DNA of 64,000 nucleotides, taken from Novosphingobium sp. (GTDB taxonomy: Bacteria; Pseudomonadota; Alphaproteobacteria; Sphingomonadales; Sphingomonadaceae). Under the pieces are notes generated by a model. The model was not told the origin of the DNA and searched no databases. It was given only the letters and a program-made list of their open reading frames with translations. The first letter of the stretch is position 1. Each line of letters begins with the position of its first letter. Position numbers and translations under genes: made by a program. This document shows positions 35,393-49,765 of this stretch, piece by piece. The DNA lies in contig NZ_JAUYNB010000010.1 of assembly GCF_030699305.1 (NCBI RefSeq), positions 124,001-188,000 of the forward strand. The letters are read 5' to 3'.

Positions 35393-36379
35393 CTATATTC
35401 CGCCGCCAGTTAGCCGCTGGCAGATCAGATCGAGCTGATCGAGCGTGCGATAGCGGATGGTGACCGTACCGGACCGCGGATCAGCATCGGCGTTGATCCG
35501 CACCGACAGGCCCAGAAACTCCTCAAGATGGCTCTGAACCGCTGCAATGTCGGCGGATTCGCCCACATCCCGGTCCCGGCGGGCGCGGCGCGGCGCGGTG
35601 GTGCCGGTCGTCTGGCGGCGGACCAGCTTTTCCACTTCGCGCACCGACAGCTGTTTCGCAACCGCCGTCTCGGCCAGCGCCCCGGCATTTTCCACGCCGA
35701 CCAGCGCGCGCGCATGGCCCATCGACAGGCGGCCATCCTGAACCATGTCCATGACCGGTTCGGGCAAGGCCAGCAGGCGCTGGAGATTCGCGACGTGACT
35801 GCGGCTCTTGTCGACCAGCTTGGCGATTTCCGCCTGAGTCAGCCCTTCCTGTTCGGCCAGGCTGTGATAGGCGCGGGCCTCCTCGATCGGATTGAGATCT
35901 TCGCGCTGAAGATTCTCGATCAGCGCCAGCGCCATCACCTCGCGTTCGCTCAAATCGCGAATAATCGCAGGAATTTCATGGAGTTGTGCGCGCTGGGCGG
36001 CCCGCCAGCGGCGCTCACCCGCCACCAGGCGATAGCGCCCGTCGCCCAGCGGGGTGACAATCACCGGCTGGATCACGCCGCGCGCCGCAATCGACGCGGC
36101 CAGTTCGTCCAGCGCGGCTTCATCAAAATGACGGCGCGGCTGGCCGGGTAGCGGTGAAATGGCCGAAACCGCCAGTGTTGCAAGGCCCGATGACGCCATG
36201 ACCGGTGACGTCGTGGCCGCATTCGCGCCCGCTGGCCCGTCCGCAGACATGACCAGCGGTTCTTCCCGGCGGGTTTCACCCAGCAGTGCGCCCAGCCCGC
36301 GGCCCAGCGCAAGCGGGCGCTTCCTGGCCGCACTGGCGGCTGGCGGCGCGGAAATGCGGATTACGGGTTCGTCGCTCAT
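35393..36379 (-). CDS. parB: ParB/RepB/Spo0J family chromosome partition protein
   Basis: LGRGLGALLGE; LPGQPRRHFDEAALDELAASIAARGVIQPVIV...YRLVAGERRWRAAQRAQLHEIPAIIRDLSEREVMALALIENLQREDLNPIEEA. Confidence 0.97.
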   Translation of the reverse strand: MSDEPVIRISAPPAASAARKRPLALGRGLGALLGETRREEPLVMSADGPAGANAATTSPVMASSGLATLAVSAISPLPGQPRRHFDEAALDELAASIAARGVIQPVIVTPLGDGRYRLVAGERRWRAAQRAQLHEIPAIIRDLSEREVMALALIENLQREDLNPIEEARAYHSLAEQEGLTQAEIAKLVDKSRSHVANLQRLLALPEPVMDMVQDGRLSMGHARALVGVENAGALAETAVAKQLSVREVEKLVRRQTTGTTAPRRARRDRDVGESADIAAVQSHLEEFLGLSVRINADADPRSGTVTIRYRTLDQLDLICQRLTGGGI

Positions 36380-37152
36380 GCGGCCTTCCTCTGTTTGGGC
36401 AGGCGGGTAATCAACTCACGCGCCAGCGCCATATAGGCGCGGCTGCCAACGCAGTTGTGGTCATAGATCAGCGCAGGCAACCCGTGGCTGGGCGCTTCCG
36501 ACAAACGCACGTTGCGCGGGATGACCGCTTCGAACACGAGGTTGCCGAGGCACGAGCGCACGTCGTCTGATACCTGATCGGTCAGGCGATTGCGGCGATC
36601 GAACATCGTCAGCGCAATGCCGACAATCCCCAGATCGGGGTTGAACCGCTGCTGCACCCGCTCCACCGTCTGGAGCAGCTGGCTCAGCCCCTCCAGCGCG
36701 AAGAATTCACATTGCAGCGGCACCAGCAACGTGTCGGCCGCGCACAGCGCGTTCAACGTCAACAGGCCCAGCGACGGCGGGCAATCGATAAAGCAGATAT
36801 CATGCGTGGTATCGCCAGCCAGCGCATCGGCCAGGCGCTGGGTCCGATTCTCGACCGACACCAGTTCGACTTCCGCCCCGGACAAGTCGACGGTCGCCGG
36901 GATGAGGTCCAGTCCCGGAATGCGCGTCGGCATCACGCATTCATCGAGCGCGGCCTGATCGACCAGCAAGTCATAGGACGACCGCTCCCGCTCGGCCGTG
37001 CTGACGCCAATCCCGGTTGAGGCGTTGCCCTGCGGATCGAGATCGATCAGCAGCACTTTCCACCCGGTTGCAGCCATCGCGGTGGCGATGTTGATGGCGG
37101 TGGTGGTTTTGCCCACTCCGCCCTTCTGGTTGGCGATCGCCACGCGAATCAC
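36376..37152 (-). CDS. parA: ParA family ATPase (Soj)
   Basis: [52 protein letters not shown] start inferred. Confidence 0.97.
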   Translation of the reverse strand: MIRVAIANQKGGVGKTTTAINIATAMAATGWKVLLIDLDPQGNASTGIGVSTAERERSSYDLLVDQAALDECVMPTRIPGLDLIPATVDLSGAEVELVSVENRTQRLADALAGDTTHDICFIDCPPSLGLLTLNALCAADTLLVPLQCEFFALEGLSQLLQTVERVQQRFNPDLGIVGIALTMFDRRNRLTDQVSDDVRSCLGNLVFEAVIPRNVRLSEAPSHGLPALIYDHNCVGSRAYMALARELITRLPKQRKAA

Positions 37153-37802
37153 GATTTGCGTCCCTTCCTTGCGGTGCTTTCGGCCACAGTGCCGACGATC
37201 ACCCCCGCTTCGGCATCGGTCAGCGATGGTTCCACGTGGAACGTATGCTGCCAGCCGGAGAGTTCCTGCAATTCTTGCGGCGCGGAACGGCCTTTCGGCA
37301 ACAACCAAATCGTGTCGGCTGTGGAAAATCGTGCGGATAGCTCCAGCAGGCGGGGCAACGGCGCAAACGCACGGGCCGAAATGACGCGAACCGGCTGACT
37401 AGGCACCAGTTCCAGCCGGGCGCCGACCACTTCCGCCCGGTCCAGCCCCAGCGCGATTCGCGCGCGCTCCAGCCACTCGATTCGCCGCGCCCGCGATTCG
37501 ACCATCAGCACCGCGCATTCCGGACGCAGCGCCGCGATCACCAATCCGGGGAACCCCGCACCGGTTCCCAGATCCAGCCAGGGCGATCCTGTTTCACGTG
37601 GAACATGGGTCAGCAACTGCGCCGAATCGGCAATGTGCCGCCGCCACACCTCAGCAAGACTGGCGGCGGAAACCAGATTCTGGCGCGTGTTCTCTTCGAC
37701 CAGCAATCGCACGAGCGCATCGAGCCGCTCGGCAGCAGCCCCGTCCCATTCGGGCAACTGCGCCAGCCAGTCGCGGGCATCGGCTTCGCTGTGCAGTATC
37801 AT
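37149..37802 (-). CDS. rsmG: 16S rRNA (guanine(527)-N(7))-methyltransferase
   Basis: [59 protein letters not shown]. Confidence 0.95.
37228..37243. promoter_or_regulatory. parS-like site inside rsmG
   Basis: GGTTCCACGTGGAACG; perfect palindromic core GTTCCACGTGGAAC. Confidence 0.75.
37590..37605. promoter_or_regulatory. parS-like site inside rsmG
   Basis: TGTTTCACGTGGAACA, one base from canonical TGTTTCACGTGAAACA. Confidence 0.85.
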
Positions 37803-39661
37803 GCCGCCCGCCGCCGGGCATGAACCAGCAGCGCCGCCAGCGCCGCCGGGGTAATTCCCGGCACACGCCCCGCTGCGGCCAAAGTTTCCGGGCGCGCACG
37901 GGACAAGCGTTCCACCATTTCCCGCGACAGGCCGGGGATCGCCGCGTAGGGAAAGTCATCCCCCAGCGGCAGCGCTTCAGCCGCGCGCAGATCGCGCAGT
38001 TCAGCATCCTGCCGCGCAAGGTAGGGCGCATAGGCCGCATCTTCCGCCACTTCCCCGGCCAGTTCCGGGTCTGCCGCCTGCGCCGCGGCAAGGCTGTCCA
38101 CCGCGATCCACGGGGACAGGCTGGTCAACGCCACCCCGCCGAACCGCAGCCATTCGCGCAGCGGCAGGCGTCCGGTATCGGCCCGGACCGGCAGGCCTGC
38201 CAGAGCCAGTTCGTTGCTGGTCACCGCCGAATCGAGCGCCAGATCGAGCCGCGACCGCGCCGCTTCGCGCGCCTGATACCAACTGGCCCGCTCCGGTCCG
38301 ATGCACCCTGCGGCCAGACCCAGCGGCGTCAGCCGCGAGGTGGCATTGTTGGCCCGCAATCGCAGCCGGTATTCGGCCCGGGCTGTGAGCATCCGATAAG
38401 GTTCGGTAACGCCGTGCAGCGTCAGATCATCGATCATGACGGCCAGATAACTGTTCGCCCGGTCGAGCGCGACCGGCGGCCGACCCAGCACCGCAGCGGC
38501 GGCGTGCATTCCCGCGACCAATCCTTGTGCAGCGGCCTCTTCATAACCGGTGGTGCCGTTGATCTGGCCGGCGCAATACAGCCCCGGCAGATCGCGCAAT
38601 TCCAGCGATGACCGCAAGGCGCGCGGATCGATGTAATCGTATTCCACGGCATAGCCCGGAACGACCATTTCGACGGCTTCCAGCCCGGCCATCGTCCGCA
38701 GCATCGCGAGCTGGACATCGCTGGGGAGCGAAGTGGAGATCCCGTTGGGATAGACCAGATGCGTCGCCAGCCCTTCGGGTTCCAGGAACACCTGATGCCC
38801 ATCGCGGTCAGCGAACCGGTGAATCTTGTCCTCGATCGACGGGCAGTAACGCGGCCCGGACGCGCCGATCGCCCCGCTGAACAAGGGCGAACGATGCAGG
38901 TTCGCGCGGATGACGTCGTGACTGCGCGGGTTGGTCCGGGTGATCGCGCAGAACACCTGCGGATTAACCCGCCCGTTCCCAAGCGCCGACATCGTCCATG
39001 GTTCCGCATCGGACGGCTGCTCATCCAGCCGCGCCCAGTCAATCGTCCGGCCATCAAGCCGGGGCGGTGTCCCGGTCTTGAGCCGCGCCATCGGCAGCGC
39101 GGCTTCGCGCAGTTGCGCCGCCAGCTGCTGGGCCGATGCCTCACCGATCCGTCCGCCGACAATCCGCTCTTCCCCCCGGAACAGCACGCCGCCCAGGAAC
39201 GTGCCGGTGCACAGCACCACGGCCTGCGCGGCGATTCGGGTGCCGTCCGCCAGGGTAACCCCCGTGACGCGGCCCCCATCCAGTTGCAGCGCTGCCGCCT
39301 CGCCGGCAATCAATGTCAGGTCGCCTTGCAGGGCCAGCAAGCGCTGGACCTCGACCTTGAACAGCACCCGGTCCGCCTGAACGCGCGGCCCCTGCACGGC
39401 GCTGCCTTTGGAACGATTGAGCATCCGGTAATGGATCGCGGCGGCATCGGCCGCGCGGGCGATAATGCCGTCGAGCGCGTCGACCTCACGCACCAGATGG
39501 CCCTTGCCCAGCCCGCCAATTGCCGGATTGCAGCTCATCGCGCCGATCACGTTCAAGTCAAAGCTGACCAGCGCGGTGCGCGCACCCATTCGCGCCGCCG
39601 CAGCCGCAGCCTCAACCCCCGCGTGCCCGCCGCCGATCACGATGATGTCAAACGCCTGCAT
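37799..39661 (-). CDS. mnmG: tRNA uridine-5-carboxymethylaminomethyl(34) synthesis enzyme MnmG (GidA)
   Basis: [66 protein letters not shown]. Confidence 0.97.
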
Positions 39662-39682
39662 GGCGCCGCTGTAGCGGAGGAG

Positions 39683-39698
39683 CGTTTCACGTGGAACA
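39683..39698. promoter_or_regulatory. parS-like site in mnmG-mnmE intergenic region
   Basis: CGTTTCACGTGGAACA, two mismatches to consensus. Confidence 0.75.
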
Positions 39699-39727
39699 GG
39701 TTTTACGGCGATTGCATCGGCGCGCGA

Positions 39728-39743
39728 TGTTTCACGTGAAACA
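39728..39743. promoter_or_regulatory. Canonical parS site
   Basis: TGTTTCACGTGAAACA, exact 16-bp consensus palindrome. Confidence 0.95.
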
Positions 39744-47598: not shown

Positions 47599-48624
47599 TT
47601 ACTTGCGCCAGCCGCGCACCACCGCAAGCAATGCCTCGACATGCTCCAGCGGGGTGAACTGGCCGATCCCGTGGCCCAGATTGAACACGTGCGGCCGATC
47701 CGCAAACGCGTCCAGCACGCGCAGGGTCTGGCGTTCCAGCTCTGCCCCGCCGGCCAGCAGCAACAGCGGATCGAGGTTGCCCTGCACCGGCAGCCCGGCA
47801 GGCAGCGTTCTGGCCGCCCACAGCGGGTCAACCGTTTCATCGATCCCCACCGCATCCACCCCGGTTTCACGGGCATAGGCGGCCAGCTTTTCACCGGAAC
47901 CCTTGGGAAAACCAATCACCGGCACATCCGGATACCGCGCCTTGATCCGTCCGGCGATTGCAGCATTCGGGGCAATTACCCAGCGTTCAAACTCCTCCGG
48001 GGCCAGACTGCCGGCCCAGCTGTCGAACAGTTGCACCGCTTCGGCGCCCGCTTCGATCTGACCGGCAAGGTATTCCACGGTCACATCGACAATGGCGTCG
48101 ATGATCGCCTGGAACGCCGCCGGATCGCGATAGGCCATGGCGCGCGTTTCATGCTGGTCGCGGCTGCCCTCGCCCGCCACCATATACGTCGCGACGGTCC
48201 ATGCACTGCCCGCAAAGCCCAGCATGGTCTTGTCTGCGGCCAATCCGGCGCGGACCAGCCGGACGGTGTCATAGATCGGGCTGAGCCGGTCTGGCACGGC
48301 TGTCAGCGCGGACAAGGCCGTATCGACCAGCCGGGGGGACAGGTGCGGACCTTCACCGGCCAGGAACTGCAAATCCTGCCCCATGGCGTAAGGCACGATC
48401 AGAATGTCTGAAAACAGGATCGCGCCGTCGAACCCGAACCGCCGGATCGGCTGCAAAGTGATCTCTGCCGCAGCTTCGCTGTCATAGACCAACGGCAGGA
48501 ATCCGCCCTTTTCGGCCCGCAATGCACGGTATTCCGGCAGATAGCGCCCTGCCTGCCGCATCAGCCAGACTGGCCGCTGACTGGCGTTCCGACCACGCAG
48601 GGTATCAAGCAGCAAACCGGGCAT
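47599..48624 (-). CDS. hemE: Uroporphyrinogen decarboxylase
   Basis: MPGLLLDTLRGRNASQRPVWLMRQAGRYLPEYRALRAEKGGFL; an upstream ATG at 48648 is also possible. Confidence 0.96.
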   Translation of the reverse strand: MPGLLLDTLRGRNASQRPVWLMRQAGRYLPEYRALRAEKGGFLPLVYDSEAAAEITLQPIRRFGFDGAILFSDILIVPYAMGQDLQFLAGEGPHLSPRLVDTALSALTAVPDRLSPIYDTVRLVRAGLAADKTMLGFAGSAWTVATYMVAGEGSRDQHETRAMAYRDPAAFQAIIDAIVDVTVEYLAGQIEAGAEAVQLFDSWAGSLAPEEFERWVIAPNAAIAGRIKARYPDVPVIGFPKGSGEKLAAYARETGVDAVGIDETVDPLWAARTLPAGLPVQGNLDPLLLLAGGAELERQTLRVLDAFADRPHVFNLGHGIGQFTPLEHVEALLAVVRGWRK

Positions 48625-48934
48625 CGAACGATTCCATTCCAATAACATTTAAGATTTTTTATAAGGATGTGACTGTAGTTGGCCTGTGGATAGCGCGAAC
48701 AACCGCGCCTTGCCTGATTTGTCCCGGCCTGAACAGGGGGCAAGCGCAGGGCGACTCTGTTGCCCCCCGCGTCAAGCAAAGGTTATCCCGGCTATCCCCA
48801 GCCTGTGGGTAACAGTTTCCACCTGTCCACAAGTGGCGCACAGGAGTCCGGTCAATGGGCATGGAATCCATGTCGGATCTTGTCCCCCGGTTTGTCCCGT
48901 GATTTATGCGACCAATTGTCCACAGGGAGCCAAA
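48625..48934. other. Putative chromosomal replication origin (oriC)
   Basis: hemE/DUF299 intergenic region: AT-rich tract aacatttaagattttttataagg; DnaA-box-like sites CTATCCACA (48685-48693, -), TTACCCACA (48804-48812, -), CTGTCCACA (48823-48831, +), TTGTCCACA (48916-48924, +) and weaker CTATCCCCA (48792-48800, +); gene orientation flips here. Confidence 0.78.
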
Positions 48935-49765
48935 ATGCCCCGTCTCAACCTGCATCTGCTGTCGGATTCCACCGGCGAAACGCTGGAAGCCATCGCCAAG
49001 GCGGCGCTGGCGCAGTTCGAGGGGGCGGACGTGATCCGCCATTTCTGGCCGATGGTCCGCTCGCAGCAGCACCTTGACCGGATCATGGGCGATATCGCCA
49101 GCAATCCGGGGCTGGTGTTCTATACCATGGCCAGCACTGAATTACGCGGCAAGCTGGTGGAACGGTGCCGCGCGCTGGGGTTGCCGGTCGTGTCGGTGTT
49201 GGATTCGGCAGTCGAAGCGCTGGAATCCGCGCTGGGCCAGCACCCCCGCGCCCGCCCCGGCCGCCAGCACATGATGGACGAGGCCTATTTCGCCCGGGTC
49301 GACGCGATCCAGTTCACCATCGCCCACGACGACGGGGTGATGTGGGAAGACTGGGAAGAGGCCGACATCGTCCTTGCCGGGGTGTCACGCTCGTCAAAGA
49401 CGCCGACCAGCATCTATCTCGCCAATCGCGGGTTCAAGGTCGCGAACATCCCGGTCGTGGTGGAAAGCCCGCCGCCCACTGCGCTGTTCGGGCTGAAGCA
49501 TCCACTGGTCGTGGGGCTGACCACCGCGCCCGACCGGCTGATTCAGGTCCGCCGCAACCGGCTGCTCTCGCTCAACCAGGCGCCCGAAACGGCTTATGTC
49601 GATCAGGACCGGGTGGTGCGCGAAGTGCAGTATGCACGGCGGATGTTTGCCGATAACGACTGGCCCGTGATCGACGTCACCCGCCGCTCGATCGAGGAAA
49701 CCGCTGCCGCCGTGATCAACCTTTACAACGAATCCCGTGCGCCCAAGGATGGCCGGGCCGACTGA
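48935..49765 (+). CDS. Pyruvate,water/phosphate dikinase regulatory protein (DUF299, kinase/pyrophosphorylase)
   Basis: MPRLNLHLLSDSTGETLEAIAKAALAQFEG...ADIVLAGVSRSSKTPTSIYLANRGFKVANIPVV. Confidence 0.94.
   Translation: MPRLNLHLLSDSTGETLEAIAKAALAQFEGADVIRHFWPMVRSQQHLDRIMGDIASNPGLVFYTMASTELRGKLVERCRALGLPVVSVLDSAVEALESALGQHPRARPGRQHMMDEAYFARVDAIQFTIAHDDGVMWEDWEEADIVLAGVSRSSKTPTSIYLANRGFKVANIPVVVESPPPTALFGLKHPLVVGLTTAPDRLIQVRRNRLLSLNQAPETAYVDQDRVVREVQYARRMFADNDWPVIDVTRRSIEETAAAVINLYNESRAPKDGRAD

Follow-up and report, generated by a model that had tools for sequence, protein, structure and literature searches.

The hemE–DUF299 Intergenic Gap as the Probable Chromosomal Replication Origin of a Novosphingobium, and Its Load of GANTC Sites

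Results and Discussion

The Locus and Its Gene Neighborhood

The window analyzed here is a 64-kb stretch (positions 124001–188000) of the 583-kb contig C35, from a Novosphingobium genome of 3.36 Mb available as a draft of 40 contigs. Window coordinates are contig coordinates minus 124000. Two divergent genes enclose a gap of 310 bases at 48625–48934 (contig 172625–172934). The left boundary gene is hemE (47599–48624, minus strand; TIGR01464, E = 3.6e-114; start placed from relatives), and the right one encodes a DUF299/COG1806 pyruvate phosphate dikinase regulator (48935–49765, plus strand; PF03618, E = 4.6e-93; NF003742), 97 percent identical to the protein of the genome's nearest named relative, Novosphingobium arvoryzae KCTC 32422. 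The initial annotation, which proposed an oriC between these genes, had named both of them and their orientation correctly. The gap has both flanking genes of the alphaproteobacterial hemE-type oriC, and the same two genes are adjacent in 78 of 80 named loci. The longest hemE ORF begins at 48648; however, because tblastn matches in most relatives start near residues 7–9, the gene probably begins at the ATG ending at 48624, and 48625–48934 would therefore be the right gap. An automatic annotation of hemE from 48648 may cut 24 bases from the origin.

To the left, the gene order is parB, parA, mnmG and mnmE, then rho, NAD synthase, a UPF0093 protein and hemE; to the right, the DUF299 gene is followed by maf and coaE. 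ParB is encoded at 35393–36379 (minus strand; TIGR00180, E = 2.6e-55, above the cut-off). The ATPase gene at 36376–37230 (minus strand, 5′ end approximate) has ParA/RepA partition ATPases as its best NCBIfam matches, below their curated cut-offs, and is named parA-like because it adjoins parB. A search of the whole genome for parS with at most two mismatches returned sites only at 37590–39743, 9–11 kb from the gap and adjoining parB, mnmG and mnmE: a perfect TGTTTCACGTGAAACA (39728–39743), a parS-like site with two mismatches (39683–39698) and a site with one mismatch (37590–37605). In Caulobacter, parS lies within about 8 kb of the origin, Cori (PMC4468827).

DnaA Boxes and the AT-Rich Tract

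Three 8/9 matches to the DnaA box had been claimed for the gap, and all are at the expected places: CTATCCACA at 48685–48693 (minus strand), whose GTGGA core all but one of the 89 relatives retain; TTACCCACA at 48804–48812 (minus strand; GTGG core in 71/89); and TTGTCCACA at 48916–48924 (plus strand; CCAC core in 86/89). The weaker plus-strand matches CTATCCCCA (48792–48800), toward which the 48804–48812 box is inverted, and CTGTCCACA (48823–48831) were likewise correctly located. YTNTCCNCA occupies the former position in 47 of 61 representatives, and a CCAC core is found at the latter in 52 of 89 relatives. A further weak box-like sequence, TTATCCCGG, precedes them at 48783–48791 (plus strand; TTnTCC at the same column in 45/61). 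The description of the boxes as mostly TTGTCCACA-type was wrong, as they are mixed one-mismatch types. The AT-rich tract that had been reported does exist, one base to the left of the position given for it, at 48644–48666. With 19 of 23 positions A or T, it is a candidate unwinding element adjoining the leftmost box; its mean column identity is 0.71, and it is AT-rich in every aligned relative. A simple test for a DnaA-trio (3′-[GA]A[N] triplets) beside that box was negative, its best run (1.92) falling short of the shuffled value (2.04).

Across the full 64 kb, 8/9 matches are no more frequent than usual (5 vs 3.4 expected), but their clustering is unusual, three of the five falling within 240 bases. 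DnaA-box scoring, as the initial annotation had suggested, makes the gap the maximum of box clustering on 580 kb of the contig under all three box definitions tried. Of the 77 YTRTCCMCA sites that the genome holds, four lie in 240 bases of the gap, where 0.0055 are expected; the chance expectation for such a cluster in the genome is about 2e-6. These four form the tightest cluster of the 77, unique in the genome, and TTACCCACA adds to it; none of the genome's 12 perfect TTATCCACA sites is in the gap. On contig C34 (42210–42263), CTGTCCACA and a perfect TTATCCACA box lie within 54 bases of each other, flanked on one side by the 3′ end of an ORF resembling argininosuccinate synthase and on the other by a dehydrogenase-like ORF (both identified by eye).

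Conserved Architecture of the Gap

We aligned 89 distinct gaps from the Novosphingobium group along their length and calculated block identities from 61 representatives. The blocks keep the same order in all 89. Starting from hemE, an AT-rich stretch is followed by GTTGGCCTGTGGAtAG with the first DnaA box, TGCCcGATTTGTCCCG, CTGAACAG, GANTC and GTCAAG; then come the box pair TTnTCCCC / CTATCCCC facing CCTGTGGG, followed by TCCACCTGTCCACAA, ACTTGTCC, TCCCGTGGTTTATGC and the last box, TnTCCACAG. The blocks, with identities of 0.80–0.92, stand out because the stretch 48834–48852 between them averages only 0.49. Identity reaches 0.91 around the leftmost DnaA box (48677–48692). The block TGCCTGATTTGTCCCG at 48709–48726 (plus strand; mean column identity 0.87 in the 61 representatives) is probably a weak DnaA site.

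At the right edge of the origin lies a conserved element, TCCCGTGATTTATGC (48895–48909, plus strand; 15-bp TCCCGTGRTTTATGC; block identity 0.91). All but two of the 61 representatives have its core at this column, and its 14-mer occurs once in the genome and once in each of the 16 congeners found to carry it. Outside the family, one exact match occurs in a genome of another family (G059:C1:151724). It was taken as chance, since on its contig it is some 150 kb from the start while the DUF299 gene is at 4.098 Mb, and it is thus away from the hemE origin.

Other elements were sought in the same gaps. An IHF site is not conserved (strict pattern in 2/61 and relaxed pattern in about 13/61 representatives), and the CtrA site TTAA-N7-TTAA is absent from the gap studied here and present in 1 of 61 representatives. 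A plasmid origin was also considered and rejected: no similar DNA was found among 72,556 plasmids.

Evidence for the Origin and Competing Readings

We conclude that the gap 48625–48934 is almost certainly the single chromosomal oriC. In addition to the densest DnaA-box cluster and the blocks conserved in 89 relatives, strand asymmetry points to it. Over 580 kb of the contig, cumulative GC skew is lowest at contig position 172972 (window 48972), and keto skew reaches its minimum at 172646 (window 48646). The GC-skew check proposed initially was thus carried out as far as a draft allows: the minimum falls on the gap, and it is that of one 583-kb contig of 40 rather than of a closed chromosome, with a GC skew that is weak (about 2 percent). 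A complete relative (G005, chromosome of 3.91 Mb) was sampled as 40 stretches of 20 kb. An unsupervised split with two change points placed its flip from minus to plus skew between 3,422,501 and 3,520,001, and its DUF299 gene, at 3,475,790–3,476,602, is inside this interval. Skew, parS and the flip in the relative are three lines independent of the boxes, and they agree on the origin. The initial proposal of an oriC is well supported by these lines and by the box cluster.

The gap could instead be only a divergent promoter region, its conservation reflecting transcription control with DnaA acting as a transcription factor. Because hemE and the DUF299 gene are divergent, the gap has to contain the promoters of both; DnaA regulates transcription in Caulobacter, and the 15-bp element could be part of the DUF299 promoter. 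However, this reading leaves the skew minimum, the parS linkage and the skew flip of the complete relative without explanation. Moreover, a sigma-70-type scan found neither a promoter nor a terminator in the gap, and Rfam gave no RNA above threshold, only two weaker matches (E about 0.6, the gathering score being three times higher). We therefore consider a purely promoter role highly improbable, while noting that origin and promoter functions can coexist in one gap. Still less credible, to the point of being nearly negligible, is a functional origin elsewhere, for example beside dnaA, the location that had been named as the alternative. Although oriC adjoins dnaA in many bacteria and the assembly is not closed, dnaA is on another contig (C13, 16.7 kb) that has a single YTRTCCMCA site, about 8 kb from the gene, and elsewhere in the genome such boxes come at most in twos.

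For the origin at 48625–48934, we propose that DnaA-ATP would assemble on at least five imperfect boxes (48685–48924), whereupon the AT-rich tract at 48644–48666, beside the leftmost box, would be the likely site of opening. Helicase would then be loaded for two diverging forks, and ParB bound to parS 9–11 kb to the left would segregate the new origins. As a weaker addition, the clustered GANTC sites, hemimethylated after passage of the fork, may report or modulate initiation.

Comparison with Known Origins

Cori is flanked by hemE and the COG1806/DUF299 gene (PMC1914354), and oriC has been placed near hemE for most Sphingomonadaceae (PMC4741004). Position and gene neighbors of the present gap match Cori and the published sphingomonad predictions; the origin location is already known for relatives, and the gap is therefore another example of a known origin type. 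It shares with Cori the flanking genes, DnaA boxes below consensus, an AT-rich tract and a nearby parS. GANTC sites are present in Cori as well, according to a passage of PMC3973325 citing Shaheen 2009. Cori boxes are of reduced affinity, with stronger boxes elsewhere in Caulobacter (PMC4468827); similarly, the Novosphingobium origin is without perfect boxes while the 12 perfect sites sit elsewhere. There are also differences, since Cori has five CtrA sites and the Novosphingobium gap none, and the IHF site is not conserved in the gaps of the Novosphingobium group. The boxes in this gap of 310 bases are one-mismatch TTATCCACA types, in contrast to the Cori G-box (TGATCCACA). CtrA sites are absent from most other oris (PMC4468827).

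Within the family, the oriC predicted for Sphingopyxis granuli TFA, like those of other Sphingomonadaceae (Ori-Finder/DoriC), is also beside hemE; its DnaA boxes are likewise conserved, and an unwinding element is proposed for it; GANTC, parS and the 15-bp element are not discussed in the excerpts of that paper used here (PMC4741004). The present analysis fixes the origin for a member of Novosphingobium, which serves in studies of biodegradation and lignin, and provides a curated origin set with conserved blocks suitable for mutation. The less expected part is the family-wide crowding of the origin with apparent CcrM sites, one of them invariant in 89 of 89 aligned gaps.

GANTC Sites in the Origin

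CcrM is a cell-cycle DNA methylase that methylates GANTC. The genome encodes a CcrM-type protein with a RAMA domain, a domain that was matched among 14 control genomes only in Caulobacter. Four GANTC sites are found in the gap. The one at 48753–48757 (GACTC) is present in 89/89 relatives and 61/61 representatives, with a varying central N; those at 48630–48634, 48844–48848 and 48864–48868 are shared by 28, 14 and 27 of the 89 relatives, respectively. Four sites in 310 bases (12.9 per kb) is a low count for this group. The 61 representative gaps average 4.70 sites (first-order shuffles, 1.41). Sampling a single genome from each genus of the family gives 31 gaps with a mean of 5.77 compared with 1.54, at least two sites being present in 30 of the 31. 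The over-representation in oriC is thus 3.3- to 3.8-fold across the Sphingomonadaceae, and most genera of the family have a GANTC roughly as far from hemE as the invariant one. We found no paper on GANTC in sphingomonad origins in the openly accessible literature searched.

Enrichment as a rule for all alphaproteobacterial origins was rejected. Sixteen origins representing other families of the same order have a mean of 1.25 sites with 1.26 expected. In 18 origins from other orders, the excess is slight (3.67 vs 2.43 expected). Six origins of one other genus average 5.5 sites vs 1.6, a value driven by two near-identical origins with 13. These two (G040 and G028, from another family of the order) carry their 13 sites in 457 bases, and other species of the genus have one or two.

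The excess in oriC may simply express a GANTC enrichment common to intergenic DNA at large, with no role specific to the origin, and we give this explanation roughly even odds. Alphaproteobacterial intergenic regions are enriched in GANTC (PMC3973325, in the citing passage of PMC8116508). In addition, the Caulobacter origin has several GANTC sites, yet CcrM is not required to control initiation there (PMC3973325); a GANTC load therefore need not mean origin control. Among seven permuted palindromic control motifs of the same composition, AGNCT is also raised, 2.4-fold. This is at least partly because AGCCT sits in a conserved DnaA-box block, and part of any such excess therefore reflects block conservation. 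Conversely, the other six controls are at or below expectation, and other intergenic DNA on the contig holds 2.8 GANTC per kb (rough gene calls, the oriC gap not among them), far from the 12.9 per kb of the gap. The invariance of one site in all 89 relatives and the lack of an excess, as a group, in fifteen of the 16 other-family origins also argue against a general effect. The load may, alternatively, serve the hemE or DUF299 promoters that share the gap.

The ccrM Upstream Region and Possible Methylation Control

The 250 bases upstream of ccrM are also loaded with GANTC. They hold 8.3 sites in the genus vs 1.4 expected and 4.7 vs 1.0 in other families of the order, and all 30 genomes examined from the order keep this load. 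Two GANTC sites are present in the Caulobacter ccrM promoter (PMC10073500). Upstream of ccrM in the present genome there are two perfect, oppositely oriented TTATCCACA boxes (C30:160647 and 160729), the only pair of perfect boxes in the genome that close together; in roughly half of the congeners, this region contains a single perfect box. This arrangement would be consistent with a feedback loop between DnaA and CcrM.

The pattern resembles Dam/SeqA of E. coli, in which a replication-sensitive adenine-methylation site is likewise over-represented both at the origin and at a single regulated promoter. The methylase and site are different, however, the second loaded promoter is that of dnaA there and ccrM here, and we know of no SeqA-like reader for the GANTC system. 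E. coli has eleven GATC in oriC and eight at dnaA (PMC10073500), and a further difference is that CcrM of Caulobacter does not control initiation (PMC3973325).

Sphingomonad origins are without the CtrA sites through which Caulobacter controls replication, and Sphingomonas melonis can do without CtrA (PMC8116508), which raises the question of what limits firing to once per cycle. It is conceivable, although we regard it as unlikely, that the Sphingomonadaceae origin is gated by CcrM methylation, convergently with Dam/SeqA. The invariant GANTC at 48753 and its variable neighbors would become hemimethylated on firing, and ccrM, with its GANTC load and, here, its two perfect DnaA boxes, would close a DnaA–methylation loop in place of the CtrA control of Caulobacter. 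With one GANTC invariant in the origin and a heavy GANTC load upstream of ccrM, an answer based on methylation lends itself to direct testing. In the present genome, the ccrM upstream region (C30:160640–160800) contains nine GANTC in 250 bases.
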